Part shown: piece by piece, positions 45,586 to 60,605 of the stretch
Numbering within the stretch: the stretch's first letter is position 1
Layout of the letters: every line of letters begins with the position of its first letter
NCBI GenBank assembly: GCA_022647575.1
Contig: JALCKY010000004.1
Location: 248,001 to 312,000 of the forward strand
Reading direction: 5' to 3'
From: Lachnospiraceae bacterium
GTDB taxonomy: Bacteria > Bacillota > Clostridia > Lachnospirales > Lachnospiraceae
DNA: 64,000 nucleotides
Notes under the pieces: generated by a model
Databases searched by the model: none
Seen by the model: only the letters and a program-made list of their open reading frames with translations
What the model was told of the DNA's origin: nothing
Position numbers and translations under genes: made by a program

Positions 45586-47028
45586 TCAGACCGTGATCTC
45601 CGCTTTTTCGCCGAGCAGTTCCGCGTTGGCATCGAGGATCGGCTGGATGACTTCCTGCAGGAAGCGGTCGACCTGGTGTGCAGCGCAGCCGGTGTATTTG
45701 GACGGATCCATATATTTCTGCAGATCGTCCATGCTCACATGGAAATCGGGATCTTCCGCGATCAGTTCGAGAAGGTTGTTGTCGAGTCCTTCCTCCTTGA
45801 CACGTTTTCCTGCCTGCATGGACAGTTCACGGATCTTCTCATGCACCTTCTGGCGGTCGGCGCCGAAATTGTTCACTTCATCCATCATGATGTTTTCCGT
45901 TGCCATGAAAGGCAGCTCCGCACGCAGATGGCGCTCGATCACCTTCGGATAGACCTTCAGTCCGTCCGTGACGTTGAGGCAGAGATCCAGTACGCCGTCA
46001 ATGGCAAGGAATGCCTCCGGAACGGAAAGACGTTTGTTGGCGGAATCATCCAGCGTCCGCTCGAACCACTGGGTGCCGGATGTGATGGCCGGATTCAGGG
46101 CATCGCACATGACATAGCGGGAGAGGGAGCAGATCCGCTCGCTCCGCATCGGATTTCTCTTGTAGGCCATGGCAGACGAACCGATCTGCGATTTTTCAAA
46201 CGGTTCCTCCACTTCCTTCAGGTGCTGCAGCAGGCGGATATCGGTCGCCATCTTCATGGCGGATGCCGCAATGCCGGCAAGTACATTCAGGACCTGTGTG
46301 TCGACCTTGCGGGAATAGGTCTGTCCGGAAACCGGATAGCAGGCTTCAAAGCCCATCTTTTCCGCGATCATCGGATCGAGTCTGTCGACCTTGTCAAGAT
46401 CGCCGTGGAACAGTTCAAGGAAGGAGGCCTGCGTTCCCGTCGTGCCCTTGCTGCCGAGCAGCTTCAGGGACGCGATGACATGTTCGGTCTCTTCCAGATC
46501 CAGGCAGAACTCCTGCATCCAGAGCGTTGTCCTCTTGCCGACGGTCGTCGGCTGGGCCGGCTGGAAATGCGTAAATCCGAGGGTCGGCTGATCCTTGTAT
46601 TCTTCGGCAAACGAAGAGAGCTCCGCCAGTACGTTGATCAGCTTCTTGCGGACCAGCTGCAGCGCTTCCTTCATGATGATGATGTCCGTGTTGTCGCCGA
46701 CATAGCAGCTCGTCGCGCCGAGGTGGATGATGCCAGCCGCCTTCGGACACTGCTGGCCGTATGCATACACATGGCTCATGACATCATGCCGGACTTCCTT
46801 TTCCCGGGCTCTTGCGACCTCATAGTTGATGTCGTCCTGGTGTTCCTTCATCTCCGCGATCATATCGTCCGTGATCTTGGTGATCCCGAGCTCTTTCTCC
46901 GTCTCTGCCAGCGCGATCCAGAGTTTTCTCCAGGTGCGGAATTTCATGTCCTGCGAGAAAATGAACTGCATCTCTCTGCTTGCATACCGCTGTGACAGCG
47001 GGCTTGTATAGATATCTGTTCCTGCCAT
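45586..47028 (-). CDS. purB: Adenylosuccinate lyase
   Basis: 480 residues, start at ATG 47028 after GGGAGGAACAG. The fumarase/aspartase superfamily signature is present (QIGSSAMAYKRNPMRSERIC, mobile loop with catalytic Ser). Others are HLGATSCYVGDNTD, FTHFQPAQPTTVGKR and GTTGTQASFLELF. It cleaves SAICAR and adenylosuccinate to fumarate plus AICAR or AMP. Long C-terminal form as in eukaryote-like PurB proteins of Clostridia. Confidence 0.97.
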   Translation of the reverse strand: MAGTDIYTSPLSQRYASREMQFIFSQDMKFRTWRKLWIALAETEKELGITKITDDMIAEMKEHQDDINYEVARAREKEVRHDVMSHVYAYGQQCPKAAGIIHLGATSCYVGDNTDIIIMKEALQLVRKKLINVLAELSSFAEEYKDQPTLGFTHFQPAQPTTVGKRTTLWMQEFCLDLEETEHVIASLKLLGSKGTTGTQASFLELFHGDLDKVDRLDPMIAEKMGFEACYPVSGQTYSRKVDTQVLNVLAGIAASAMKMATDIRLLQHLKEVEEPFEKSQIGSSAMAYKRNPMRSERICSLSRYVMCDALNPAITSGTQWFERTLDDSANKRLSVPEAFLAIDGVLDLCLNVTDGLKVYPKVIERHLRAELPFMATENIMMDEVNNFGADRQKVHEKIRELSMQAGKRVKEEGLDNNLLELIAEDPDFHVSMDDLQKYMDPSKYTGCAAHQVDRFLQEVIQPILDANAELLGEKAEITV

Positions 47029-47210
47029 ATCTGTTCCTCCCTTACTGTTAAGACAGCTTCCGCTGCCCGCTCATTCCTTTTCGATCTGCAATATTTGCCA
47101 ATATCCCGTCTGGATATCTGTCCGTCCTGCTGCATCCATTGGTATCCTGCACGGATGCCTTTCGGACCTGCTGCATCTGCTGCCACCCCGTTCAGATGCC
47201 TCCGCCCGCG

Positions 47211-47480
47211 GATTTTGTCTTTTGCAGACGAAAACGTGTATCCGCGACAAAATACGCTCTTTTTCACGAGGCCAGCCATCTGATTTTACGTGGATTTTGT
47301 CTTTTTTCAGCGGAACTGCACATCCGCAGCAAAATATCTTTCGACCACAGGACACTTTTTGTCTGGTTTATTAAAATATCAGTTTTTTGACAAAATCGCC
47401 ATCTGGACAAAGGCTTCAGAGACCTGATTTGACGCGGTTTTTGTCTTTCGCAGGCGAAAACGTGTGTCCGCGACAAAATC
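47211..47480. repeat. Intergenic AT-armed hairpin repeats between purB and purF
   Basis: Three units: 47211-47254, 47292-47337 and 47437-47480. Each is bounded by TTTTGTC and its complement or near-complement, around a core like CAGACGAAAACGTGTATCCGC. A fourth, core-less unit (47354-47397) keeps only the arms. The core (on the minus strand CGCGGA, then GTTTTCG, then CTGC) recalls the GC-armed repeats at 15.65-16.02 kb. The region 47029-47629 contains no supported gene; short open frames there only read through these repeats. Confidence 0.7.
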
Positions 47481-47523
47481 TCCGGTGCATCACCAATCAA
47501 CATATGCAGAAGTTATACATTGT

Positions 47524-47632
47524 GCGGCTTCCAACCGTCCGCGCTTTACAGGACGGTTTACATCTCCGGCCTGACACACCGATGAAGCCGCATCAGCGGC
47601 TTCCGACCGTCCGCGCTTTACAGGACGGTTTA
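47524..47632. repeat. Two copies of a two-hairpin repeat behind purF
   Basis: The second copy (47584-47632) has hairpin 1 GAAGCCGC/GCGGCTTC and hairpin 2 ACCGTCC/GGACGGT around the loop GCGCTTTACA. The first copy (47524-47561) keeps hairpin 2 and a decayed hairpin 1. The second copy includes the purF stop codon. Same architecture as 49200-49345 and 60718-60763 but with different, compensated stem sequences. Confidence 0.8.
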
Positions 47633-49138
47633 ATCCAGCCGCAGTTCCGGCAGGCCTTCGCAGGCGCCGCCCGAATGCAATCCGTTCCACTGCTCGTTTT
47701 CCCCGCGCTCGTCTCCCGCGGGCGGATCGACCGGATAATGTCCGGTAAAACAGCCGTCGCAGTATCCGAATTTTCCGCCGATCATTTCCTTCAGCCGGTC
47801 GGTCCCCAGATAGGCGAGCGAATCGGCGCCGATGACCTTCCGGATATCCTCGATGCTGCGGTTGTAGGCGATCAGCTGCTCCCGCGCCGGCACATCCGTG
47901 CCGAAATAGCAGGGCCACAGGAACGGCGGCGACGAGATCCGGACATGCACTTCCTTCGCGCCGGCCTTGCGCAGCATTGCCACGATCAGATCCGAAGTCG
48001 TACCGCGCACGATCGAATCATCGACCATGATGATACGCTTCCCTTCCACCGCGCTGCGGATCGGGTTCAGCTTGACCTGCACCGAACTCTCACGGCTCTT
48101 CTGCGTGGGTTTGATGAAAGTCCTGCCGATATAGGCGTTTTTCACAAAGGCATGGCCGTAGGGAATGCCTGATTCGCAGGCATAGCCGAAAGCCGCCATG
48201 TTGCCGGATTCCGGTACGCCGACGACCAGATCGGCATCGACCGGCGAATCCTTCGCCAGGTATTTCCCGGCAATGATCCGCGCGTCATAGACGCTCTGTC
48301 CGTCCAGAATGCTGTCCGGCCGCGCAAAATAGATATATTCAAAAATGCATTCGCCCCGTTCTTCCTTCTTCAGGCAGTGCGAACGATCCGAGACAAGCCC
48401 CTCTTCTTCCGAGATTGTGACGATCTCACCGGGCTCCACATCCCGCACGAACGTCGCGCCGATCGTATCCAGCGCACAGGATTCGGAAGCCAGCATCCAG
48501 GCATTGTCCCGCTTTCCGATGCAGAGCGGACGGAATCCGTAGGGATCGCGCACGCCGATCAGCTTTCGCGGCGAGGAGATCACAAGGGAATAGGCTCCTT
48601 TGATCTGCTGCATCGTAAGCCCGACCGCTTCTTCGATCGAATTGCTCTTCAGTCGGTTCCGGGCGATTTCAAAGGCGATGACCTCGGAGTCGATGGTCGT
48701 CTGGAAAATAGCACCGGTATAGGCCAGCTCTTCCTTCAGGATCGAGGCGTTGGTCAGATTGCCGTTATGCGCAATCGCCAGCGTGCCTTTCACATAATTC
48801 AGGACCAGCGGCTGTGCGTTTTCCCGTGTGCTGCTGCCGGCCGTGGAGTACCGCACATGGCCGACGCCGATATTTCCCTTCAGAGATTCCAGCACCTCCG
48901 GCGTAAAGTTTTCGTTCATGAGCCCCATGTTCTTATAGCTGATGATCTTGCCTTTGGGGCCGTTCGTATCGCTGACCGCAATGCCGCAGCTTTCCTGGCC
49001 GCGGTGCTGCAGAGCCAGCAGACCGTAATAAATGGAATGTGCCACATTGAGGTTTCCGTCAAAATCGTAAATGCCGAAGACACCGCATTCTTCCCCGATC
49101 CTGTCGCTCTGTGGCTGCCTCATGAAAGTATCTTTCAT
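47630..49138 (-). CDS. purF: Amidophosphoribosyltransferase
   Basis: About 502 residues. Start at ATG 49138 (MKDTFMRQPQSDRIGEECGV) after TGAGGT; ATG 49168 is in frame but lacks a site. The glutaminase half carries nucleophile Cys in GEECGVFGIY, here after a short propeptide, with QHRGQESCGIAV and GHVRYSTAGSS. The phosphoribosyl half has the PRPP loop RIIMVDDSIVRGTTSD and GVPESGNMAAFGYACESGIP. It makes phosphoribosylamine, the first step of purine synthesis. The C-terminus runs into the repeat element behind it. Confidence 0.97.
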   Translation of the reverse strand: MKDTFMRQPQSDRIGEECGVFGIYDFDGNLNVAHSIYYGLLALQHRGQESCGIAVSDTNGPKGKIISYKNMGLMNENFTPEVLESLKGNIGVGHVRYSTAGSSTRENAQPLVLNYVKGTLAIAHNGNLTNASILKEELAYTGAIFQTTIDSEVIAFEIARNRLKSNSIEEAVGLTMQQIKGAYSLVISSPRKLIGVRDPYGFRPLCIGKRDNAWMLASESCALDTIGATFVRDVEPGEIVTISEEEGLVSDRSHCLKKEERGECIFEYIYFARPDSILDGQSVYDARIIAGKYLAKDSPVDADLVVGVPESGNMAAFGYACESGIPYGHAFVKNAYIGRTFIKPTQKSRESSVQVKLNPIRSAVEGKRIIMVDDSIVRGTTSDLIVAMLRKAGAKEVHVRISSPPFLWPCYFGTDVPAREQLIAYNRSIEDIRKVIGADSLAYLGTDRLKEMIGGKFGYCDGCFTGHYPVDPPAGDERGENEQWNGLHSGGACEGLPELRLD

Positions 49139-49199
49139 TTTTACCTCATATTCTGATAATCCGTCCATAAAGAAAAGCCGTTTGACATGGAAAGTATAT

Positions 49200-49345
49200 C
49201 ATAATTATGCCAGTAAACTGAAGCTGCGTCAGCAGCTTCGCATCCGCCACGTTTTACAGGCGGATGTTATACCATAATTATGCCAGTATACTGAAGCTGC
49301 GTCAGCAGCTTCGCATCCGCCACGTTTTACAGGCGGATGTTATTC
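49200..49345. repeat. Tandem pair of 73-bp two-hairpin repeats upstream of purF
   Basis: Units 49200-49272 and 49273-49345 are nearly identical with a period of 73. Each has CATAATTATGCCAGT, hairpin 1 GAAGCTGC/GCAGCTTC, and hairpin 2 CATCCGCC/GGCGGATG around the loop ACGTTTTACA. They fill most of the gap between the ABC ATPase gene and purF. The purF -10 (TATACT) lies in the AT-rich edge of the first unit. Confidence 0.9.
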
Positions 49346-49371
49346 CAAGTAAACGGCTTTGCATCAATTGC

Positions 49372-50124
49372 TCATGACTGAAATTTTCCTATGAAGTCCC
49401 TGACCCTCGTGCTGTCCGAATTGAAGAGTTCATCCGGTGTGCCCTGCGCCTGGATCACGCCGTTCTCGAGGAAAATGATCCGGTCGGACAGTTCCCTCGC
49501 AAACTGCATTTCGTGCGTGACGATAATCATTGTCCAGTGTTCCTGCGCCAGTTTGCGGATGACCTTCAGGACTTCTCCCGTCAGTTCCGGATCGAGTGCG
49601 GACGTCGGTTCATCGAAAAACAGGATCTTCGGTTCGAGTGCCAGAGCCCGCGCGATGGAAACCCGCTGCTGCTGGCCGCCGGACAGCTGGAACGGATAGG
49701 CGTCCTCCCTGCCTCCGAGACCCAGATCCGAGAGCAGCTGTTTTGCCTTCTCCTCCGCCTGCTGCCTCGTCTTTCCCGCCAGAATCTGCGGTTCGGCGAT
49801 ATTCTTCAGCACGGTATAATGCGGAAACAGATTGAAATTCTGAAACACCAGGCCGAAGCAGCGCCGGATGTTCTTCATTTCCTCCGGAGATGCATATACG
49901 CACTGGCCGTTCTCTTCGTGCGCCGCGTAGCTGTCGAGATATTTCAGGCTTCCGCCGTCCATTTTCTCCAGCATCGTCGCACAGCGGAGCAGCGTGGACT
50001 TCCCGCCGCCGGAGGGACCGATGATGGAAACCACCTCGCCCTCCTGCACCGTCAGACTGACGTCTTTCAAAACAGCCGTGCCGTCAAATGCTTTTTTCAT
50101 ATGGGAAATTTCCAGAAGATTCAT
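49372..50124 (-). CDS. Amino-acid ABC transporter ATP-binding protein (GlnQ type)
   Basis: 250 residues, start at 50124 (MNLLEISHMKKAFDG) after GGAGGT. Walker A is GPSGGGKST, signature LSGGQQQRVSIARAL, Walker B ILFFDEPTSALDPE, switch His in IIVTHEM. It powers the polar amino-acid importer formed with the two genes upstream. Last gene of the operon; the tandem repeats follow it. Confidence 0.95.
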   Translation of the reverse strand: MNLLEISHMKKAFDGTAVLKDVSLTVQEGEVVSIIGPSGGGKSTLLRCATMLEKMDGGSLKYLDSYAAHEENGQCVYASPEEMKNIRRCFGLVFQNFNLFPHYTVLKNIAEPQILAGKTRQQAEEKAKQLLSDLGLGGREDAYPFQLSGGQQQRVSIARALALEPKILFFDEPTSALDPELTGEVLKVIRKLAQEHWTMIIVTHEMQFARELSDRIIFLENGVIQAQGTPDELFNSDSTRVRDFIGKFQS

Positions 50125-50201
50125 GAATACACCTCCGCGCGGGGAACTTACGCCTTCCCGCGCCGGACAGACGGTGCACCGCACCGGAGCTGTGCCGCCT
50201 T

Positions 50202-50855
50202 TCAGATCCTGTAGTAGTTATAGTGTTTTTCGATCCGGGCGCAGGCCCATGCCACGATCAGGTTGAAAATGTAGTAAAACAGGCCCGCCGCCATCAGCGG
50301 CATGATCGAAGCCTCCTTGGCCGCGATCTGTTTTGCGATCGTGAACATTTCCGCGGTCGCAATGGCAAAGGAAAGCGATGTGTCCTTGACCAGTGTGATC
50401 ACTTCGTTGGTGATCGGCGGAAGGACGCGCTTCAGAACCTGCGGCAGGATGATCCGCAGAAATGTCTGGCTCCTGCTGTAGCCCAGCACATGCGCCGCCT
50501 CATACTGGCCGGCCGGTATGGACTGGATGCCGGAACGGTAGATCTCCGCAAAGTACGCGGCGTAGTTCAGGGCAAACGCGATGATGACCGCCGTGAAACG
50601 GAACGTGGACGAGATCTTCATATGAAAAACATAATATGGTGAGAAATACAGCACGATCAGCTGCAGCATAAGCGGTGTGCCGCGCATGATGGAAATATAG
50701 ATCCGGCTGATCACTGAGACCGGCCGGAACCGGCTCATGCGGAGGAATGCCACCCCGAGGCCCAGGGGCAGGGAAAACAGCAGCGTCAGCAGAAAAATCG
50801 CCACCGTTGTACCCATACCGTTCATCAGCTGCTGAAACATCACCGCGATACTCAT
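50202..50855 (-). CDS. Amino-acid ABC transporter permease (GlnP/HisM type)
   Basis: 217 residues from ATG 50855 after GGAGAA. Family signatures are SIMRGTPLMLQLIVLYF and the EAA loop YRSGIQSIPAGQYEAAHVLG, with LPQVLKRVLPPITNEVI and about five membrane helices. It forms the homodimeric channel for the binding protein at 50.9-51.9 kb. Confidence 0.95.
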   Translation of the reverse strand: MSIAVMFQQLMNGMGTTVAIFLLTLLFSLPLGLGVAFLRMSRFRPVSVISRIYISIMRGTPLMLQLIVLYFSPYYVFHMKISSTFRFTAVIIAFALNYAAYFAEIYRSGIQSIPAGQYEAAHVLGYSRSQTFLRIILPQVLKRVLPPITNEVITLVKDTSLSFAIATAEMFTIAKQIAAKEASIMPLMAAGLFYYIFNLIVAWACARIEKHYNYYRI

Positions 50856-50943
50856 GAATTCTCCACTTCTTCCTGAAAAGCCCGGCCCTGCCATAGCAGC
50901 AGCCGGGCATGTCTTTGACGATTCCTGCCGGTCCTTCCGGACC

Positions 50944-51899
50944 TTATTTTATGCAGAGGCTCTGTGCAATTCCGAAATCGGCGTATTTCTTGTCTTCCGC
51001 AATTTTCTGGATGGTGCCGTCAGCCGCCATTTCATCGAGCGTCTTCTGTACCTGATCGCGAAGGGCTGTATTGCCGAGTTTGAAACCGACTGCATACTGT
51101 TCGGTGGAGAGATAGTCGTCGAGGATCTTGAAGCCGTCCCCGCCTTTCTGGCTGATCTCATACTTTGCCACACCGATATCGATGGCAACCGCATCGATGG
51201 CACCCGCCTGCAGATCCATGAATGCCGTGTTGTAGTCCGCATACTGGGTCAGGGAGCCGAAGGTTGCCGCAAGATCCTTGCTGTCGCCTTCGAGCGCCGC
51301 AAGTGCGCTGGAATCCTTCTGCACACCGACATTTTTTCCGGCAAGTGCAGCCTGATCAGCGATCGTACCGTCAGAGGGCACAACGAATACCTGGCTGTTG
51401 TCGATATAGGGTTTGGTAAAGGTATACTGATCTTCCCGGCCGTTCATGGTAAAACCGTTCCAGATGCAGTCGATCGTTCCGGAATTGATCTCGGCGTCCT
51501 TTGCATCCCAGTCGATCGGCTGTTTTACGAGCTTCCAGCCGTTCCGGTCGCAGACTTCCTGTGCAAGATCCAGGTCGAAGCCGGTATATTCGCCGTCATC
51601 GCCCATATAGCCGTAAGGCGGGAACTCCGCGTCGAAGCCGACGGTGAAGGTGTCGCCTGTCGTCTTGCCCGTGCCGGCATCCGATGCTGCTGCTGCTGCG
51701 GATGTCGCTGCTGCAGATGCCGATGTCTCAGCTGCCGCCGATGCAGCTGCCTGTGATGCTGATGCCGCCGCAGATGTTGCTGCCGCCGGGGCCGCAGAGG
51801 ACGATGCCGCTGCCGTATCTCCCGCGGCTGTGCTTCCGCAGCCTGCCAGCAGGCTGACGGACAGAGCTGCTGTCAGAATAATGCCATTTTCTTTTTCAT
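50944..51899 (-). pseudogene. Amino-acid-binding lipoprotein with a frameshift in the signal peptide
   Basis: The natural start, ATG 51899 behind AGGAGGAGG, gives MKKKMALF then a stop. One base out of phase, the signal peptide continues LTAALSVSLLAGCGS with a perfect lipobox, followed by an Ala/Ser linker and a complete SBP family 3 domain (DTFTVGFDAEFPPYGYMGDD, GFDLDLAQEVCDRNGWKLV). The only in-frame start is a TTG at 51936 that would destroy the signal. A single missing base near 51880 is the simplest explanation, by mutation or by sequence error. If real, the importer lacks its binding protein. Confidence 0.8.
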
Positions 51900-52118
51900 A
51901 ATACTGTACTCCTCCTCCTGAAATTTCCGGAATCAAGTGCCGTCCGGTTTCGCTTTATTGATTTATCAGTTTACTACGCTAAATCGAAAGGACAGAAGTA
52001 TCCTATCAGATAAAGCGCAGGCCGTCAACGGCCTGCTGCATACGATTTCACGGCAGGATTTTACGGCAGCGGACATCTGCACCCGGCCGCCGCACAGACC
52101 GGCTGCCGCATCTTCCGG

Positions 52119-52952
52119 TCAGCTGCCGAGATTGGTACGGTAATTGTCCCGCATTTCACGAATCGTGGAAGAAAGTTCCGAAAGGAATTCCTCGCGTGCG
52201 ATGCCGCCGCGCAGCCGGCGCAGCTTTTCGATCTGGGCATGCCCCGCGGTATTCTCATAGTTCAGATGCGCGTCATCCATCCGGCGTTCGACTTCGAGGG
52301 AAGCCTCATAGGCCTCCGGATGGCCGGCAATGAAATTGACGTAATCCGCGTCCGGAAGATACATGCGGACTGCGGAAAGATAGTCGATGTAGTACTGTTT
52401 TTCATCCGAAAGGTCCGCCGCGGTATGGAGACATTCCGCCGCCATGGCAAACCGGAAAAGCCCGCAGTAAATGATGCCGCGGCTGTGTTCGATCCTGGCC
52501 CGGAGACGCCGCTCGGGTTCGGGAAGCTGCGAAAGGATCTTCTCGTACTCCGTAAGCGCCTGGTAAAAATGGCCGGTATCCATCAGGTAGTCGGCCTTGG
52601 CCTCCTTCTGCTCGTACCGCTCCAGGCCTTCGCCCGCGCGCAGCACCTGCAGTGCGCCCTCCTGTTTTTCGATCGGGATGTAATCCGCAATGCCGAGGAT
52701 CGTACCCGTAAAATCCGCCAGCCGCTCTCCGTGGCCGATATACGGCCGGAGCAGCTTTGCAAGGTCCGGCAGGCCGCACTCGTCCGACAGCCAGGTGAGC
52801 AGCTCCGGGTCCATGATCGACTCATCCAGGAACTGCGCGCTCTGTACCAGCGAGTAGGCCAGTTCCTCATAGGAGTACACATTGCGGTCGATCACCGAAA
52901 TGTGATATGGAATTTTCGTCCGAATACCGGTTGTAAGTATCAGTGCGCTCAT
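52119..52952 (-). CDS. Helical protein of unknown function in the DUF5716/DUF5717 operon
   Basis: 277 residues, predicted mostly helical. There is a conserved-looking start (SALILTTGIRTKIPYHISVI), and TPR-like helices in the middle (YLMDTGHFYQALTEYEKILS, LRARIEHSRGIIYCGLFRFA, AAECLHTAADLSDEKQYYID). No signal peptide or membrane helix. It starts inside the stop of the DUF5716 gene (ATGA overlap), so the two are made together. Last gene of a three-gene operon. I know no functional assignment. Confidence 0.75.
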   Translation of the reverse strand: MSALILTTGIRTKIPYHISVIDRNVYSYEELAYSLVQSAQFLDESIMDPELLTWLSDECGLPDLAKLLRPYIGHGERLADFTGTILGIADYIPIEKQEGALQVLRAGEGLERYEQKEAKADYLMDTGHFYQALTEYEKILSQLPEPERRLRARIEHSRGIIYCGLFRFAMAAECLHTAADLSDEKQYYIDYLSAVRMYLPDADYVNFIAGHPEAYEASLEVERRMDDAHLNYENTAGHAQIEKLRRLRGGIAREEFLSELSSTIREMRDNYRTNLGS

Positions 52953-54277
52953 AATTGAATACCAAAGTTCCAGGTCTGTCCGCTCGATCTCGCGATCTCG
53001 CCGAAACCGAGATCCTCTGCATCGATCGTCAGCTTATCCTTTGCCGACATGGTAAAACGGAGACCGATCCGTACCGTTCCCTCCGCCCGTTTCGGCAGCT
53101 GGTCCAGCAGGATCCTCTCCTGCCGTACGTCCCCGCCTGTCAGCGGCGTGATGACCAGGGTCAGTTCGTTTCCTTCTTCCAGAATATATTCCTCTTCCCG
53201 GTCCACCTCATACCAGTTTTCACCCGCGCTGAGCACCGGATGATACACGGAGCGGCCAAGATGACGAACGAGGAGCCCGATGTTGGAGGTCAGCTTGTTT
53301 TCCCCGAGGAAAAAGTACTTTGCGGCCGCCTCCGGTTTCTTCCGGCGGATCAGCGCCCCGTATGCCGCTCCCTTGCTGTACAGATTGTTGCCGAGGAACA
53401 CCCTGCGGTGATAGGCGATATAGGTCAGCGACTGTTTCATCCAGCGGTTCCGGAAGCCTTCGCCGATCAGGAAGACGGAGGAGATCTCATGCTCCGGTGC
53501 CGCCTGTTTCAGGATCTCGAGAAAACGGCTGTCCCGGACATCGTCCGCACTTTCGCCCGACCGCGCCGCATCGGCCTGCAGATAGTCACGGATCTGCGCG
53601 GAAGGGAGCTGCCCCGCGGACAGCTGCGGATACTCCTGCGAACGCAGGAACGCCACCACCGGCGAAGTATGATAATTGTAGCTCAGGCGGTCGATCCGCA
53701 TCGCGTGTTCGCCGTCATATTCGCAGAGAAGGACATCGTTCTCATGCATGGATTCCGGACTCATGAGCATGTAGTTGTAGAAGGAGTTCCGGCGGCTCTC
53801 GCAGTAGACAGCCTCCACCGGAAGATTCAGGAGTTTGCGCACCTTCTGCAGCGCGTTCACGGTATCCCGGTCCATCTTCTCCGCGGTGAACATGATCACA
53901 CCGATCTCGTCGGTCGGCACATCCCTTGCAAGCAGCGCCAGACAGCGCCGCACGTACAGGGCGAGCAGCGAACACGGCTCATACTCCTGCCCCTCGATCA
54001 TGACGGGCTTTCCGGACACCGCGGACGAATAAATATGCGTCACCAGCGTACCTTCCCCGTGGTCGATATGCTGCTCCGCTTCCGTGCCGCAGTACCAGAG
54101 ATTCGCACCGATCTTTTTCGTCAGCTGCGTGGGAATGTTGAACTGCTCCTGCGCGGGCATCATGGAAAAAGTCTTCGGGTCCTCCCCGTCCATCGTCGTA
54201 TAGGAAATCTGGCAGTATTTCTCTCCCAGATCAAAACCGATATTGAATTTTCTTTCTGCCGTTCTGGAAAAAAGCAA
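52949..54277 (-). CDS. DUF5716 protein with actin/Hsp70-like fold
   Basis: 442 residues. Several points match the actin/Hsp70/sugar-kinase superfamily: a phosphate-1-like loop near the N-terminus (NIGFDLGEKYCQISY), a segment like the adenosine motif (VFLIGEGFRNRWMKQSL, about 267) and YSKGAAYGALI (about 309), which mirrors the VAxGAAxxA element of Hsp70. The C-terminal ~120 residues form a beta-rich domain (ELTLVITPLTGGDVRQERIL, VRIGLRFTMSAKDKLTIDAE), reminiscent of a substrate-binding domain. Nucleotide hydrolysis is inferred. Coupled to the genes on both sides. Confidence 0.8.
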   Translation of the reverse strand: MLFSRTAERKFNIGFDLGEKYCQISYTTMDGEDPKTFSMMPAQEQFNIPTQLTKKIGANLWYCGTEAEQHIDHGEGTLVTHIYSSAVSGKPVMIEGQEYEPCSLLALYVRRCLALLARDVPTDEIGVIMFTAEKMDRDTVNALQKVRKLLNLPVEAVYCESRRNSFYNYMLMSPESMHENDVLLCEYDGEHAMRIDRLSYNYHTSPVVAFLRSQEYPQLSAGQLPSAQIRDYLQADAARSGESADDVRDSRFLEILKQAAPEHEISSVFLIGEGFRNRWMKQSLTYIAYHRRVFLGNNLYSKGAAYGALIRRKKPEAAAKYFFLGENKLTSNIGLLVRHLGRSVYHPVLSAGENWYEVDREEEYILEEGNELTLVITPLTGGDVRQERILLDQLPKRAEGTVRIGLRFTMSAKDKLTIDAEDLGFGEIARSSGQTWNFGIQL

Positions 54278-54346
54278 TGCCGGACCTCCCGGTCTCTTCA
54301 GAACTATCTTCTGCCGCTGTCACACGTCATGCGCAGCTTTGTTCAC

Positions 54347-57300
54347 TCATTCACGGCGGAACAGGGCTGCCACCATCTGTGCCCTGCGGTCGTACGCTTC
54401 AAGAACATCCAGCGCCTCGTCGTATTTCTTCAGCGCCGTGAACATGGAAATGCGGTTGATCAGTGCAAACCGGTCGTCGCCCGCATCCTGGATCCGCGTG
54501 TCCTGCCCGAACGAACCGCTCTCGACCACATTTTTCTGGTCTGCGTCGTCCGTGATGAAATACCGCACCTGCTCCCCGAAAAACAGCAGGAGGCCGGTGA
54601 CATAGATCCCGTCATACATTTCCTTCATCGGAAGAATGCTGTATTCCTCCTGTGCCGTACTGTCACGGTCGACCGCATAGTGGAAAAGGACATTGGCACC
54701 GCAGCGGCCCTTGAACTGCAGCATGGTCTGATCGGAATATTCCTGCAGCCGCGGCAGGAGTCCCGCAAAGCTCCGGTAGAACGGAAAAACAATATCTTCC
54801 GAAAGCAGATCCCCGAGGAAGAGTTTCGCCGCCTTCAGATCATCGGCCGGCATCTCGCCCGAGACTCCGGAAAGCTGTTTTAAAAAAGCCATGCGGCAGA
54901 TATCGAAAACCGGTTCGCCGGCCCGGCCGAGATCGCCGATCCTGCGGTAGATCTCCTGGCCGAATGTCACATCATCGACAAAGGCATAATGGGAGACCTG
55001 CGCGAGGAGTGCGGACAGCGTTTCCGCACTGCCGCCCCGCGCGGCATAGTCCGTGACGATCTGTTCCTCGTTTTTCAGGAGCACACCGCTGTACAGCATC
55101 TGCGTAACCATACGCTGCAGGATGATCCAGGTATCGGTCCCGAAGTTCTGCGCAGCCGCCCGGATCTGTTCCATCTCGGAGGTCAGGCCTTCAAAATAGT
55201 TTTCCAGGTAAAGCAGCATGTTTTCATCGTACTTGTTCTCGGAAAATACGCCGAACACGAGCTCGGCCGGCATTTCCTCCTCCGTCGGCATTTCCCGCGA
55301 AAGACTGCGGCTGATAAGCCGGTACATCGTGGAAGCATCCATGCCGTGAATGCCATACCGTTCGACCCAGGAGAGCGCCCGGTCATTCAGGCCGCGCATG
55401 ACAAGATAGCGGATGATCCCGTCCCTTTCGGAAGCGGTCAGTTCCTCCGGCTCGATCTCCTCCAGCCAGCTGTCCAGTTCCCGCAGGCAGTCATTATCGC
55501 TGTAATACTGCAGGAGCTTCATCCGGATCTCCTGACGCCAGTTTTCCCGCAGTTCCGGTGAATCCGCCAGCACCCGGAAACGCGCGGCATTCTCCTGCGT
55601 CACCTGCCAGCTGTCGCCGGCAAGACCCGTCAGATAAAGGTCGAACCCAAGCAGTCCCGTATCGAACTGCGCCAGCGCGGGCACCAGCGATTCATACGCC
55701 ATCAGCCGCTCGAAAATGAAGGGTGCGCTGACATAGTAGCGGTTCCCGTCGGCATCCGCATGGAAAATATGGCAGTCCTCGCCATAGATCGGCAGATAGC
55801 AGGTATCGTCCCTCGCGGGGAAACTCTGTTCACTGCGCACCTTGTCGTACCGCAGGATCACCTGCCGCAGGCCCAGTTCCGGGCGGTTGGAATGCACCAC
55901 GCACGTAAATGCCGCTTCGCAGGCCAGCGCGGCATTCTGTCTGGTCAGTACGCCGCCGTCGAGGAAATGCTGGTAAAGCCAGCAGAGCGCCTTGCTGACA
56001 TGCCGTTTTTCGAGCTGTTCCAGTGTAAACCGCCGGATATCCGGCAGATAGTGTTCATACAGATCGGAATAGCTGTCCTTGTGCTGTCCCACGTACCGGT
56101 ACAGCCGCGCCGTTTTTTCAAACGGCAGGGAACACTGGTAGCAGAAATACAGCAGCACGACCTGCGGTATCTCCCCGTCAAAATCCTGCGGCAGGGAGAG
56201 CATGTAAAACTCAAACAGCCGGGTAAGCGAAAGCTGCGCTTCAACGCCCTTCTCATACCAGATGAAATAATCAGGAGACTCCATATTTCCGCGGATCAGC
56301 AGCGTGCAGATGCTCTGCAGTGTTTCCTCGGGAAGTATCCCGGCGTTATAACCTTTTTCCAGAATGCGGAACAGCCTTCCGGAAAACAGCTTCTGCCGGA
56401 GCGTCAGCTGGTTCACCTGCGTCATGACCGCCGGTGTCAGAATATCCTTCTTCGCCGCATACCAGAGAACCTGCAGTTCAAAATCATCCAGCGAGGAAAT
56501 GACGGCCGGATTGACCCGGACAAGCTGATAGCTTTCAATATAAAGGATCGGACTGCGTATTCCCTGCCGGAAAAGATTCTGCAGAAGTTCCCACTTCTGA
56601 GAAGGATGACGGCTGTATTTATCGCAGAGATACATGGCGATCCAGGCAATGCGCCAGTTGGAAGGATCTTTCTTCCGTTCCTCCTCCACCCGGTTTGCGG
56701 CATCCATGGTGTCGAGCGCATTGCCGTCACCGGCTGCCAGGGCACCCAGATATTCCCGGTAGCAGCGCACTTCCGCCTCCGCCGGATCCCGGAATCTTCC
56801 GTCAAAATCGGCAAGCGCCCAGTTGGCTTCTCTCCGGCGGTTTGCCGTGATATCCAGATGAATACGGTACAGGGCAGCGATCGGATCGTCCGGATCCATG
56901 GTCGCCAGCCGGTCTGCCAGAACGCCGGTCTGGGCAAGCCACTCCCGCCCGCTCATCTTTTTTGCCCGATAGTCTTCATAATACCGCGTGATCTTCGCGG
57001 TGATCTGGCGGTACTCCCGCCGGACCTGGAACCAGGGATCCGCACTGTAGTGACTGGCCGCAGCTTCGACCGGCACACGCAGGTCCGTCCAGGCGCCCTT
57101 CAGCAGGATAGCGCCAAAGTTTTTACCCGCATGAAGCTTTACCGGATCGATCCGGTAGCGGATCTCGCAGCTGCTCCCCTGAAAATCCTCCTGGGTAATC
57201 CACTCTTTTTCCGGAATGAGAAAATCGCCGTCGGCCAGCACGTGGATCCTGGTATAGCCCCAGCCGTTTCGCATCAGACGGAAAAAGTACGGGATCGGAC

Positions 57301-57958
57301 GCGTCGGATCGCCGGCGCCGGAAAGCACTATGCCCAGTTCCGTTTTGATCGTTTCCACTTCCGGGATATACTGCACTGCCGTTTTCTTATTGACGGCAAT
57401 GAGAAATTCTTCCATGTTCTGCCCGTTGCCGGGCACGCAGGAAAGACCGCGCCACAGTTCCGCTTCCTCGTTTCCATGCGACGTGTCAAAGATTGATTCC
57501 AGCGCGGGATCGCTGAACAGTTTCAAGGCTTCGTCCCAGTTTGCCCTTGCCAGATTCGTAAAATGAAACAGATTTTTGACCGGCCCCATCGAAGAGGCGA
57601 TTTCCGGAATTTCAATGCTGATGCTGAACGGAAGCCTGTACTCGCCCTGATTGGATATAATGCGGAAACAGCCCTCCGCGGTTTCTCCCTGCGAATAGGC
57701 CGAGGCATCGAACCGCCATGCGATCTCATCGGCGGCGCCTGCAAATTCGGCGGTCAGGCACTGCATCGCCGGATTGGAAGAGGAGACAAAGCCGTCCGCA
57801 CTCGCGCCGGCGGGTCCGTATATGGTAAAGGTTCCTTCCGTGACTGCTCCCGGTGCCGACGAAAAAGCCACCTTCTCCTCAGAGAAAGTAAGCGCGCCGC
57901 GTATGACATGGAATTTTTCTCCCGACATGCGTTCGGGAATCGAATGGAACAGCCCCAT
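54347..57958 (-). CDS. DUF5717 large helical-repeat protein
   Basis: 1203 residues starting MGLFHSIPERMSGEKFHVIR. There are two N-terminal beta-sandwich-like regions, about 10-135 (with GCFRIISNQGEYRLPFSISI) and 205-300. Then come about 850 residues of helical, TPR-like repeats (for example AALYRIHLDITANRRREANW, LLYLENYFEGLTSEMEQIRA, MFTALKKYDEALDVLEAYDR). No signal peptide or membrane helix, so cytoplasmic. First gene of the operon with the actin/Hsp70-like DUF5716 protein. A scaffold or adaptor is the most cautious guess. Confidence 0.78.
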   Translation of the reverse strand: MGLFHSIPERMSGEKFHVIRGALTFSEEKVAFSSAPGAVTEGTFTIYGPAGASADGFVSSSNPAMQCLTAEFAGAADEIAWRFDASAYSQGETAEGCFRIISNQGEYRLPFSISIEIPEIASSMGPVKNLFHFTNLARANWDEALKLFSDPALESIFDTSHGNEEAELWRGLSCVPGNGQNMEEFLIAVNKKTAVQYIPEVETIKTELGIVLSGAGDPTRPIPYFFRLMRNGWGYTRIHVLADGDFLIPEKEWITQEDFQGSSCEIRYRIDPVKLHAGKNFGAILLKGAWTDLRVPVEAAASHYSADPWFQVRREYRQITAKITRYYEDYRAKKMSGREWLAQTGVLADRLATMDPDDPIAALYRIHLDITANRRREANWALADFDGRFRDPAEAEVRCYREYLGALAAGDGNALDTMDAANRVEEERKKDPSNWRIAWIAMYLCDKYSRHPSQKWELLQNLFRQGIRSPILYIESYQLVRVNPAVISSLDDFELQVLWYAAKKDILTPAVMTQVNQLTLRQKLFSGRLFRILEKGYNAGILPEETLQSICTLLIRGNMESPDYFIWYEKGVEAQLSLTRLFEFYMLSLPQDFDGEIPQVVLLYFCYQCSLPFEKTARLYRYVGQHKDSYSDLYEHYLPDIRRFTLEQLEKRHVSKALCWLYQHFLDGGVLTRQNAALACEAAFTCVVHSNRPELGLRQVILRYDKVRSEQSFPARDDTCYLPIYGEDCHIFHADADGNRYYVSAPFIFERLMAYESLVPALAQFDTGLLGFDLYLTGLAGDSWQVTQENAARFRVLADSPELRENWRQEIRMKLLQYYSDNDCLRELDSWLEEIEPEELTASERDGIIRYLVMRGLNDRALSWVERYGIHGMDASTMYRLISRSLSREMPTEEEMPAELVFGVFSENKYDENMLLYLENYFEGLTSEMEQIRAAAQNFGTDTWIILQRMVTQMLYSGVLLKNEEQIVTDYAARGGSAETLSALLAQVSHYAFVDDVTFGQEIYRRIGDLGRAGEPVFDICRMAFLKQLSGVSGEMPADDLKAAKLFLGDLLSEDIVFPFYRSFAGLLPRLQEYSDQTMLQFKGRCGANVLFHYAVDRDSTAQEEYSILPMKEMYDGIYVTGLLLFFGEQVRYFITDDADQKNVVESGSFGQDTRIQDAGDDRFALINRISMFTALKKYDEALDVLEAYDRRAQMVAALFRRE

Positions 57959-58031
57959 AAATGAAACCCCCGACAGGAATAAACCCCGGCGAGATTCACA
58001 GCTCCCGCCGAAAACAGTCCCGGAGAAGCGA

Positions 58032-58064
58032 ATACCCCCGGCAGAAAAGACCTGTCGGGGGTAT
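58032..58064 (-). promoter_or_regulatory. Hairpin in the leader of the DUF5717 operon
   Basis: Arms ATACCCCCGGCAG and CTGTCGGGGGTAT lie about 75 bases before the DUF5717 start. On the minus strand TATAAT (58061-58066) overlaps the outer arm, so this is a promoter with an overlapping inverted repeat, or a terminator of htpG. CCCCCGACAGG recurs at 57969-57979 just before the start codon and could pair alternatively. No long U-tract is present. Confidence 0.45.
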
Positions 58065-58154: not shown

Positions 58155-58181
58155 CATCCGCCTGTAATACGTGGCGCGGAT
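58155..58181 (-). repeat. Inverted single copy of the second hairpin of the two-hairpin repeat
   Basis: On the minus strand ATCCGC, then GCCACGTATTACAG, then GCGGAT, directly touching the htpG stop codon. The loop matches the ACGTTTTACA loop of the copies near purF but in the opposite orientation. The GAAGC hairpin is missing. Confidence 0.6.
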
Positions 58182-60466
58182 TATTTCGCCAGCAGCATCA
58201 TGATGTCGTTGCTCCGTGCCACGAACTTCGTCATTTCATCCGACTCAAGCGGCGCGTTCTGCAGCTGTGCGAGATCATACAGCTGCTCGCAGATCATCTT
58301 CGTATTGTCGCCTTCCTCGTGTTCCATCACATACTGGACCAGCGGATGGTTTGCGTTCAGGACAAGCGTCTGGCCTTCCTTTGCATAATCGCCGAGGCCC
58401 ATGGCGCCCATGCCGCTGGAAGCATACATCTTCATCATATCCTGCATACGGCGGCTCTGCTCGTCAACGGTAAGAAGTGCGGAAACCTTCTTGTCCTTCA
58501 GCTTCTGCAGCGACACCTTAAGCTTGTCATTCTTCAGCGCCTTGCGAAGCATCTTGGTCAGTTCATCTTCCTGTTTCTTCAGGTCTTCGGCGGCTTTCTT
58601 GCCGGTGCGGGCCTTCAGGGCATCCTGTACGGCTGCATCGACACGGGCAAAATGAACACCCTCATTCTTCATTTCCAGCTGGGAGATGAAGGGCTGGTCG
58701 ATCGTATGATCAAGGATAAATGCCTGCATCTTCTGCGCACGGAACTGGTTGATATACTGGCTCTGCTGTCTCGGATCCGTCACATAGTAGATCGTGCGGT
58801 CTGCGGGCTTTACTTCACCGGCTGCCTCTTCCGCCGCTTCGCCGTCTTTCTTCTCTGTGCCGTCGGCGCTTTCCGTCTTTTCGGCATCCTGTTTTACTTC
58901 TTCCGGTTTCTCTTCCTGTTTGATCGGATTGCCGTCCGCATCGAGGATCTCCGGCTTCTTTTCCTGTTTTACCGGATTGCCGTCCGCATCGAGAATTTCC
59001 GGTTTCTTCTCCGCATCCGCCTGCGGCGTGCTTCCTTCCGCCTTCTTTTCAGCGTCAGCGTTTTCTTCCTTTCCGGCATCCTTATTGATCTCCAGGGCGT
59101 CGGGAAGTGCGACATATTTGCCGTCCAGATCGCGGAACAGGATATAGTCCGTCATCTTTTCGCAGAACTTGTCATCCTTCAGGCATCCGTACTTGATGAA
59201 GGGACTGATATCATCCCAGTATTTCTCATAGTTCGCGCGGTCTGTCTTGCACATGCCGGACAGCTTTTCCGCGACCTTCTTCGTGATGTAATCGGAGATC
59301 TTCTTCACGAATCCGTCATTCTGCAGCGCGGATCTCGATACGTTCAGCGGCAGATCCGGGCAGTCGATGACGCCCTTGAGGAGCATCAGGTATTCCGGGA
59401 TGACTTCCTTGATGTTATCGGCTACGAAGACCTGATTGTTATACAGTTTGACAACGCCTTCGATGGACTCGTACTCCATGTTGATCTTCGGGAAGTACAG
59501 AATACCCTTCAGGTTGAACGGATAGTCCATGTTGAGGTGGATCCAGAACAGGGGCTCCTTGTAATCGTTGAATACCTTGCGGTAAAACTCCTTGTATTCC
59601 TCGTCGGTGCAGTCTTTCGGCGTCTTGGCCCAGAGCGGATGGATATCGTTCATGAGTTCCGGACGCTTTTTGATCTTGTACCGTTTTTCCTCCGGCTTTT
59701 CTTCCTTCTTCTCCCCTTCCGCCTTGGCGGCATCGCCTGCAGGGGTGCTGTTTTCCTTCTTCTCCGGGGGCAGTTCCTCAAGGACGATATCCTGCGGCTG
59801 GCGCTCGGATTCCTTTACGGTCTGGGTATCCTTCGGATCGGCGCTGGAAAGCCAGATCTCCGTCGGCATGAAGGAGCAGTACTTGGCGATCGTCTCGGAA
59901 GCCTTGTAATAGTTGGAGAATTCAACACTGTCCTGATTCAGGTGCAGCGTGATCGTCGTACCGAAAGTCTTACGCGTGCCTTCCTCCATGGAATAGGTGC
60001 TCCCGCCGTCGCACTCCCAGTGCACCGGCTTTGCATCCTTTGCATAGGAAAGCGTGTCGATCTCTACCAGATCGGCAACCATGAATGCGGAATAGAAGCC
60101 CAGTCCGAAATGACCGATGATCTGGTCATCCGTAGCTTTGTCCTTATATTTCTGCAGGAAATCCTCTGCTCCGGAAAAAGCGATATTGTTGATATATTCC
60201 TTCACTTCATCGGCGGTCATGCCGATGCCGTTATCAGAAAATGTCAGTGTTTTTTCATTCGGGTCAGTGACGACATCGATCCTCGGCTTATATCCGTCCG
60301 GATAGGTAAACTCGCCCATCACTTCAAGCTTCTTCAGTTTGGTCACCGCATCGCAGCCATTGGAGATCAGCTCTCTGACAAAAATGTCATGATCGGAATA
60401 CAGCCATTTCTTGATGATCGGGAACATGTTCTCGCTGTTAATTGAAAGATTGCCTTTTTCGCCCAT
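58181..60466 (-). CDS. htpG: Hsp90 chaperone HtpG with large charged insertions
   Basis: 761 residues, about 130 more than usual. The N-domain ATP site is complete (FVRELISNGCDAV, FSDNGIGMTADEV, IGHFGLGFYSAFMV). A charged linker follows (about 228-260, PPEKKENSTPAGDAAKAEGE onward), then the middle domain with catalytic Arg in LPLNVSRSALQND. An acidic, low-complexity insert (about 458-553) contains two tandem KKPEILDADGNP units. The C-terminal dimerisation domain ends the protein. Bacterial Hsp90 normally lacks such linkers. Preceded by a promoter and a perfect CIRCE element, so probably HrcA-controlled. Confidence 0.95.
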   Translation of the reverse strand: MGEKGNLSINSENMFPIIKKWLYSDHDIFVRELISNGCDAVTKLKKLEVMGEFTYPDGYKPRIDVVTDPNEKTLTFSDNGIGMTADEVKEYINNIAFSGAEDFLQKYKDKATDDQIIGHFGLGFYSAFMVADLVEIDTLSYAKDAKPVHWECDGGSTYSMEEGTRKTFGTTITLHLNQDSVEFSNYYKASETIAKYCSFMPTEIWLSSADPKDTQTVKESERQPQDIVLEELPPEKKENSTPAGDAAKAEGEKKEEKPEEKRYKIKKRPELMNDIHPLWAKTPKDCTDEEYKEFYRKVFNDYKEPLFWIHLNMDYPFNLKGILYFPKINMEYESIEGVVKLYNNQVFVADNIKEVIPEYLMLLKGVIDCPDLPLNVSRSALQNDGFVKKISDYITKKVAEKLSGMCKTDRANYEKYWDDISPFIKYGCLKDDKFCEKMTDYILFRDLDGKYVALPDALEINKDAGKEENADAEKKAEGSTPQADAEKKPEILDADGNPVKQEKKPEILDADGNPIKQEEKPEEVKQDAEKTESADGTEKKDGEAAEEAAGEVKPADRTIYYVTDPRQQSQYINQFRAQKMQAFILDHTIDQPFISQLEMKNEGVHFARVDAAVQDALKARTGKKAAEDLKKQEDELTKMLRKALKNDKLKVSLQKLKDKKVSALLTVDEQSRRMQDMMKMYASSGMGAMGLGDYAKEGQTLVLNANHPLVQYVMEHEEGDNTKMICEQLYDLAQLQNAPLESDEMTKFVARSNDIMMLLAK

Positions 60467-60578: not shown

Positions 60579-60605
60579 TTAGCACTCATTTATCGTGAGT
60601 GCTAA
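60579..60605. promoter_or_regulatory. CIRCE operator (HrcA binding site)
   Basis: TTAGCACTC-N9-GAGTGCTAA, a perfect match to the CIRCE consensus, 7 bp upstream of the htpG -35. It indicates heat-shock repression by HrcA. In Bacillus, htpG is not in the CIRCE regulon, so the arrangement differs from that model. Confidence 0.97.

Follow-up and report, generated by a model that had tools for sequence, protein, structure and literature searches.

What do three tightly packed genes do together when Pfam states no function for the families of their two larger products? The question is raised by a block of genes in the window, by which we mean the whole stretch of 64,000 nucleotides from a Lachnospiraceae bacterium (GenBank assembly GCA_022647575.1, contig JALCKY010000004.1, positions 248,001 to 312,000). 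The block occupies positions 52119-57958 on the minus strand and encodes DUF5717, DUF5716 and a small adaptor protein (Table 1), the first two of which score above the cut-offs of Pfam families PF18984, PF18983 and PF18980 and hence are members. An earlier note on this DNA described the products as an actin-like ATPase, a helical-repeat protein and a coupled partner, and suggested a chaperone or filament machine. The chaperone connection turns out to be the best lead. It is nearly certain that DUF5716 has Hsp70 ancestry and that the block is related to a larger, eight-gene operon in other families of the same order, and we give about even odds (0.5) to the reading that the three genes encode a chaperone-derived scaffold for binding client proteins, which has lost its dedicated motors and works either alone or with the housekeeping DnaK or HtpG.

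That the three genes form one block is confirmed. The gap between the DUF5717 and DUF5716 genes is 69 bases, and the last two genes do overlap by ATGA as the note had seen; the same spacing of -4 recurs at three other loci (L048, L075 and L116), and translational coupling is possible at this overlap. The arrangement is beyond chance, because the order DUF5717-DUF5716-adaptor is kept exactly at 48 of the 52 mapped loci of this three-gene (small) form, the remaining four being incomplete or without a called adaptor. The top 19-residue hydropathy means of the three window proteins are 1.12, 1.18 and 1.19, with no membrane segment in any, as the note had claimed.

DUF5716 is, as judged from sequence profiles, a diverged Hsp70 with a nucleotide-binding domain and a beta substrate-binding domain, lidless and catalytically degenerate. 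The window protein has no HSP70 match in Pfam or NCBIfam, and a search of PDB sequences with the single sequence returned nothing meaningful, so that profiles were required. A profile of 26 small-form sequences gave six PDB matches at E<=1, to DnaK only (best E-value 8.5e-5), with the similarity lying mainly in the first 150-200 residues or so. When 24 orthologues from other families were added, the resulting 50-sequence profile gave 118 PDB matches at E<=0.01. Among the best 60 of these, 59 are Hsp70-type chaperones by name and one is a 'putative uncharacterized protein', and the best (3.3e-22) covers DnaK residues 36-500, which comprise both domains and exclude the lid. DUF5716 has no alpha-helical lid: the protein and the alignment stop at the beta domain. 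Furthermore, the DUF5716 orthologues of two other-family genomes match the DUF5716_C and HSP70 models of Pfam alike, and a Foldseek search with an AlphaFold model of DUF5716 returned 159 hits at E<=0.001, the best 50 of which all belong to the Hsp70 family (top hit 6.4e-13).

The actin-like ATPase of the earlier note is therefore right as to the fold, but the catalytic residues have been lost. They were compared in a joint alignment, uncertain around K70, of 47 small-form DUF5716 sequences, 35 large-form orthologues and 86 sister Hsp70s (28+32+26). All 86 sister Hsp70s keep the phosphate-1 aspartate with its two threonines, the equivalents of K70, E171, D194 and T199 (K70, E171 and T199 in E. 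coli numbering) and the adenosine glycines. The large-form DUF5716 orthologues retain the phosphate-1 aspartate (35/35), D194 (34/35) and the adenosine glycine (35/35), and show the phosphate-1 threonines in 6/35 and 0/35, K70 in 0/35, E171 in 9/35 and T199 in 0/35. Decay is deeper in the small form, in which the threonines are found in 0/47 and 2/47, K70 and E171 each in 0/47, T199 in 2/47, D194 in 23/47, the phosphate-1 aspartate in 38/47 and the adenosine glycine in 46/47. A GA near residues 303-304 of DUF5716 is invariant (50/50). With its catalytic residues missing, DUF5716 is therefore probably not an ATPase, and would be an Hsp70 fold that has given up catalysis. It resembles Hsp70/DnaK (PF00012) in its two domains, the phosphate-1 aspartate, the adenosine glycine and the GA, and differs in having neither the phosphate-1 threonine pair and the equivalents of K70, E171 and T199 nor an alpha lid. 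Degenerate Hsp70s are familiar from eukaryotes, where Ssz1 and Hsp110 (Sse1) serve as accessory Hsp70s that probably do not cycle; they share the Hsp70 fold, and the Foldseek matches listed include entries for Ssz1 and Sse1. Unlike them, DUF5716 is bacterial, and its gene accompanies that of a beta-sandwich/helical-repeat scaffold instead of that of a J-protein.

The strongest evidence is genomic. A large form of the locus is carried by other families of the order, an eight-gene operon in which the counterparts of the three window genes are accompanied by an Hsp70, a GrpE-domain protein, a second Hsp70 and an Hsp70-VWA fusion (Table 1). The Pfam domains of all eight genes were checked in one genome (G024) and those of five in another (G066); examples of the Hsp70 with a C-terminal VWA domain lie at L038:6787-8862 and L055:2670-4748. 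At 22 of 35 large-form loci, all seven genes from DUF5717-main to the TPR protein are present in order, and whichever genes are present keep the same order at 35 of 35; many of the 13 loci that miss some genes lie at contig or locus ends or have genes in pieces. The small and large forms are defined by gene content, and the informative part is which families fall where. The small form is found at all 47 loci of the window's family and in three named relatives, and each of the 35 large-form loci belongs to some other family. A GrpE-domain gene, present in the large-form loci of those other families, was found at none of the 47 window-family loci, nor in the three relatives. Likewise, a search of 19 window-family genomes with the Hsp70-VWA protein returned in all 19 just other Hsp70-fold proteins, at no more than 40% identity and with no alignment past residue 540 of 692, and the large-form control, G024, gave a full-length match at 68% identity.

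The remaining two window proteins can also be traced to the eight-gene operon. DUF5716 itself matches its large-form counterpart in a profile-profile comparison with a probability of 100% (E-value 1.7e-56), and DUF5717 matches both split subunits of the large form, again at 100%. Residues 5-190 of the adaptor match the TPR protein that closes the operon (hhalign 99.9, E-value 2e-32), and the adaptor accordingly looks like a reduced version of that protein. A four-sequence profile of DUF5717 found nothing in the PDB. The AlphaFold model of DUF5717 (predicted local distance difference test, pLDDT, 62.9; predicted template modelling score, pTM, 0.32; last 150 residues unreliable) predicts an alpha-helical repeat solenoid after residue 300 or so, with a beta insertion at about 680-740, in agreement with the helical-repeat protein of the earlier note; the first 300 residues depart from that description, being modelled from about residue 25 onward as two beta-sandwich regions with helices in between. 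These regions are Ig/ASH-like. In Foldseek, with low template modelling (TM) scores throughout, one part of the protein matches axonemal central-apparatus, SPD-2 and titin Ig entries and the other Ctr9, SKI and IFT helical-repeat subunits; both the ASH label and the allotment to parts were read from the sizes and names of the hits.

The direction of change between the two forms was approached with a quick tree of DUF5716 (93 rows) rooted on the second, sister Hsp70. The 47 small-form sequences make up one clade with support of 100, which under this root is nested among large-form sequences and lies nearest to that of G003, a genome whose locus has an Hsp70, a GrpE, a second Hsp70, a broken Hsp70-VWA and TPR pieces beside its DUF5716 orthologue. 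The nesting supports a loss of four genes, with DUF5717 becoming fused and the adaptor smaller. Gain of the four genes elsewhere is the less likely direction. A divergent aminotransferase gene lies upstream at 18 of the 50 loci that begin with a gene of the small-form type (a set that includes the large-form locus L041) and at 4 of the 17 that begin with DUF5717-N (one of the four being weak); since it flanks both forms at some loci, it fits a single shared locus.

Both families are widespread in the order and almost universal in the window's family. Among 246 genomes drawn from the order, 117 have DUF5716 and 122 have DUF5717; comparison of the two lists by hand gave 114 genomes with both, 3 with DUF5716 alone, 8 with DUF5717 alone and 121 with neither, and the co-occurrence that the earlier note had looked for is thereby borne out. 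All 33 window-family genomes in these lists have both. Within that family, DUF5717 occurs in 388 of 397 genomes (316 of 320 of high quality; 328 of 334 genera), and at least one negative, G683, is explained by a gene that runs off the contig end. A phylum-wide draw that was poor in genomes of the order had DUF5717 in 4 of 348, each from the window's family, and the DUF families were found in none of 14 control genomes. The viral contigs searched held no relative and the plasmids searched no match. Four unannotated faecal records labelled 'Bacteriophage sp.' (MT835719, MT835988, MT835486 and MT837634) contain DUF5716 relatives of 24-29% identity, and are perhaps host DNA.

The genes of the large form fall into two classes by rate of divergence. 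Among 15 genomes in which all eight genes are separate, 93 of the 105 pairs were used, after 12 close pairs (second Hsp70 at least 80% identical) had been left out. The three Hsp70s average identities of 0.749, 0.736 and 0.733 (the last being Hsp70-VWA), versus 0.347 for the DUF5716 orthologue, 0.275 for DUF5717-N, 0.251 for DUF5717-main, 0.25 for GrpE and 0.327 for TPR. The small-form proteins average 0.28 (DUF5717), 0.297 (DUF5716) and 0.278 (adaptor) across 44 loci. With the Hsp70s at about 74% and the five partners at 25-35%, the small form thus retains fast-evolving parts only. The window's bin holds the locus at two corresponding positions, between which the genes on either side share 60-76% identity and the three genes themselves 21-26%.

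These results suggest the following scheme. The eight-gene form encodes three active-looking Hsp70s (one with VWA) and a dedicated GrpE together with a pseudo-Hsp70, a scaffold and a TPR adaptor. At the Lachnospiraceae locus the scaffold is fused and the four motor and exchange genes are missing, and the three window genes would be what is retained, on the client side, of a chaperone machine with several Hsp70s. Homology, gene order, decay of the catalytic residues, distribution and rates are all observed; that the proteins form a complex and bind clients, which partner they use and which way the change went are inferred. In the likeliest mode of action, DUF5717 would be a cytoplasmic scaffold. 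DUF5716 would bind through its beta substrate-binding domain with no cycling driven by ATP, its nucleotide-binding domain being used for docking, either statically or gated by a ligand. The adaptor would join these two proteins to another, perhaps housekeeping DnaK, HtpG or, in many species, P4, a protein encoded next to the adaptor (see below). The wider proposal, that one bacterial order has an undescribed multi-Hsp70 machine of which the Lachnospiraceae, now lacking the motors, keep a near-universal core operon as a motor-less client receptor or as a borrower of DnaK or HtpG, is put forward more tentatively, at something short of even odds. Judged by title or abstract opening, and with subscription papers outside the scope, none of the papers that searches on the families, the operon or their distribution listed describes the operon; one of them carries either DUF name.

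Several observations weigh against this reading. The tree has an assumed root, leaves 25 of its 90 inner branches open and contains some long rows. One genome from outside the family, G167 (family f8), carries the small form and was counted as two loci, L076 and L136. The genome-wide search within the window's family was for the Hsp70-VWA protein only, and orthologues of the other two Hsp70s and of the GrpE protein may lie elsewhere in those genomes. In a profile of nothing but the 26 small-form sequences, the beta domain of DUF5716 scores just 3.6 bits, and binding of clients by DUF5716 is suggested by its fold only. The AlphaFold model of DUF5716 came from a four-sequence alignment and is weak (pLDDT 59.7, pTM 0.46), and the Foldseek matches have low TM-scores, mostly near 0.33; given the weak model, the fold claim rests on the sequence profiles together with the Foldseek match. 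Across 1.48 Mb of loci, the operator of the HrcA heat-shock repressor, CIRCE, stands beside neither form of the operon, and there is thus no sign of HrcA heat-shock control. Finally, the window's bin, from which both the window and locus L037 derive, may be a mix of two related genomes.

Among other explanations, the three proteins might have no present chaperone role and assemble instead on P4 for an envelope or division task. P4, of about 395 residues and with a coiled-coil look, follows the adaptor at 28 of 44 small-form loci (examples are L063:5937-7130, L064:9812-10990 and L005:11157-12344) and is also found at large-form loci L040, L041 and L051; all 28 P4s of 370-450 residues have one or two central hydrophobic segments. 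It is not beside the window genes, however, and a one-query search of limited sensitivity was negative in seven of nine genomes, the window's included, which makes a membrane-linked scaffold unlikely, if still worth keeping in mind. No Pfam family matched at E<=1e-5 among three P4s tested, and homology of P4 to the GrpE protein was ruled out (hhalign probability 0.3). Rather less probable is a conflict or defence system, the case for which begins with the nearest described system, the HSP70/GrpE theme of GAP1-N2 GTPase-centred conflict systems. As outlined in section 29 of PMC7159879, this second theme of those systems combines HSP70 and GrpE with an FNIII protein to which DnaJ or TPR is fused. 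The components agree with those of the large form (Hsp70, GrpE, a variant Hsp70 and a beta-sandwich protein with TPR), the beta-sandwich and helical-repeat scaffold would suit such a role, and the partners evolve fast. The large form differs in having three Hsp70s and a VWA-Hsp70 fusion, however, and the window's family has no Hsp70 genes at the locus; moreover, no linked GAP1-N2 domain was found in 18 genomes (12 large-form and 6 window-family), the domain occurring in one of them on another contig and in 1 of 14 controls. The three window proteins have no match at E<=0.01 in PADLOC, in which two of the Hsp70s match one candidate model weakly, and near-universality in one family, without a plasmid match, is unlike the patchy occurrence of defence genes.

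A module of co-chaperones serving HtpG is more doubtful again. The earlier note was correct that an Hsp90 gene with inserts lies directly upstream, but the adjacency is local: htpG is the next gene at 5 of 44 mapped small-form loci (the window, L003, L004, L064 and L068; the mapped stretch of L073, one of the 44, reaches less than 2 kb upstream), and it is present in 20 of 20 genomes but within about 12 kb of DUF5717 in just 6. Moreover, terminator-like hairpins and a TATAAT hexamer lie between htpG and DUF5717 (Table 1) and suggest that the two are transcribed separately; such hairpins number 16 in the region versus 10.8 in shuffles. The filament machine of the earlier note shares with our reading the actin/Hsp70 superfold, but nothing was found to support it. 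The best 50 Foldseek hits are Hsp70s, the ATPase residues are lost, and a beta substrate-binding domain is characteristic of Hsp70s; an actin-like filament system is thus very improbable.

Table 1. Features of the window and gene content of the eight-gene operon (aa, amino acids)
Feature	Position	Strand	Details
DUF5717 gene	54347-57958	-	1203 aa; PF18984 E 1.2e-243, PF18983 E 2.9e-74
DUF5716 gene	52949-54277	-	442 aa, TTG start; PF18980 E 3.8e-86, covering the C-terminal part only
Adaptor gene	52119-52952	-	277 aa; sub-threshold TPR match, 1e-4
ATGA overlap, DUF5716 stop / adaptor start	52949-52952	-	4 bases, from the sequence
htpG (Hsp90)	58181-60466	-	761 aa; 222 bases upstream of DUF5717; not a conserved part of the module
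Two terminator-like hairpins, htpG-DUF5717 interval	57984-58041	-	just after a TATAAT hexamer at about 58068-58063
CIRCE element (HrcA operator)	60579-60605		0 mismatches; 113 bases upstream of htpG
Large-form gene 1			DUF5717-N, about 390 aa
Large-form gene 2			DUF5717-main, about 900 aa; joined with DUF5717-N in some loci
Large-form gene 3			Hsp70, about 558 aa
Large-form gene 4			GrpE-domain coiled-coil, about 280-650 aa
Large-form gene 5			DUF5716 orthologue, about 520 aa
Large-form gene 6			second Hsp70, about 546 aa
Large-form gene 7			Hsp70-VWA fusion, about 692 aa
Large-form gene 8			TPR protein, about 387 aa

The neighbouring htpG gene has features of its own. The window HtpG has charged inserts, one with the repeated stretch KPEILDADGNP; the NCBIfam HtpG model has 614 positions, and the other full HtpG open frames in the 20 genomes encode 673-758 residues. 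The CIRCE element ahead of it was located with the CIRCE consensus, and the chance expectation is a mean of 0.01 at up to 3 mismatches. CIRCE also precedes htpG at L003 and L004, and with up to 4 mismatches allowed none was found before htpG at L064 or L068. The window's bin contains, on separate contigs, two copies each of purB (76% identical), htpG (60%) and the DUF5717 operon, the second operon being L037 (G000:C2:18000-37999) and the window region concerned 45586-57958; purB and an amino-acid ABC transporter lie near both. The DUF5717 of a genus-mate, G787, is 39% identical to the copy on C2 versus 25% to the window copy. Duplication into paralogues inside the window's genome was set aside as an explanation, a possibly mixed bin being preferred.

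If the three genes do encode a scaffold of chaperone origin that binds clients, two DUF families of nearly every sampled genome of the Lachnospiraceae, a dominant gut family, would gain both a parentage and a role that can be tested. The two forms of the operon would amount to a natural experiment on what becomes of a chaperone machine after its motors are removed, and in DUF5716 bacteria provide a pseudo-Hsp70 whose divergence far outpaces that of the intact Hsp70s encoded alongside it.

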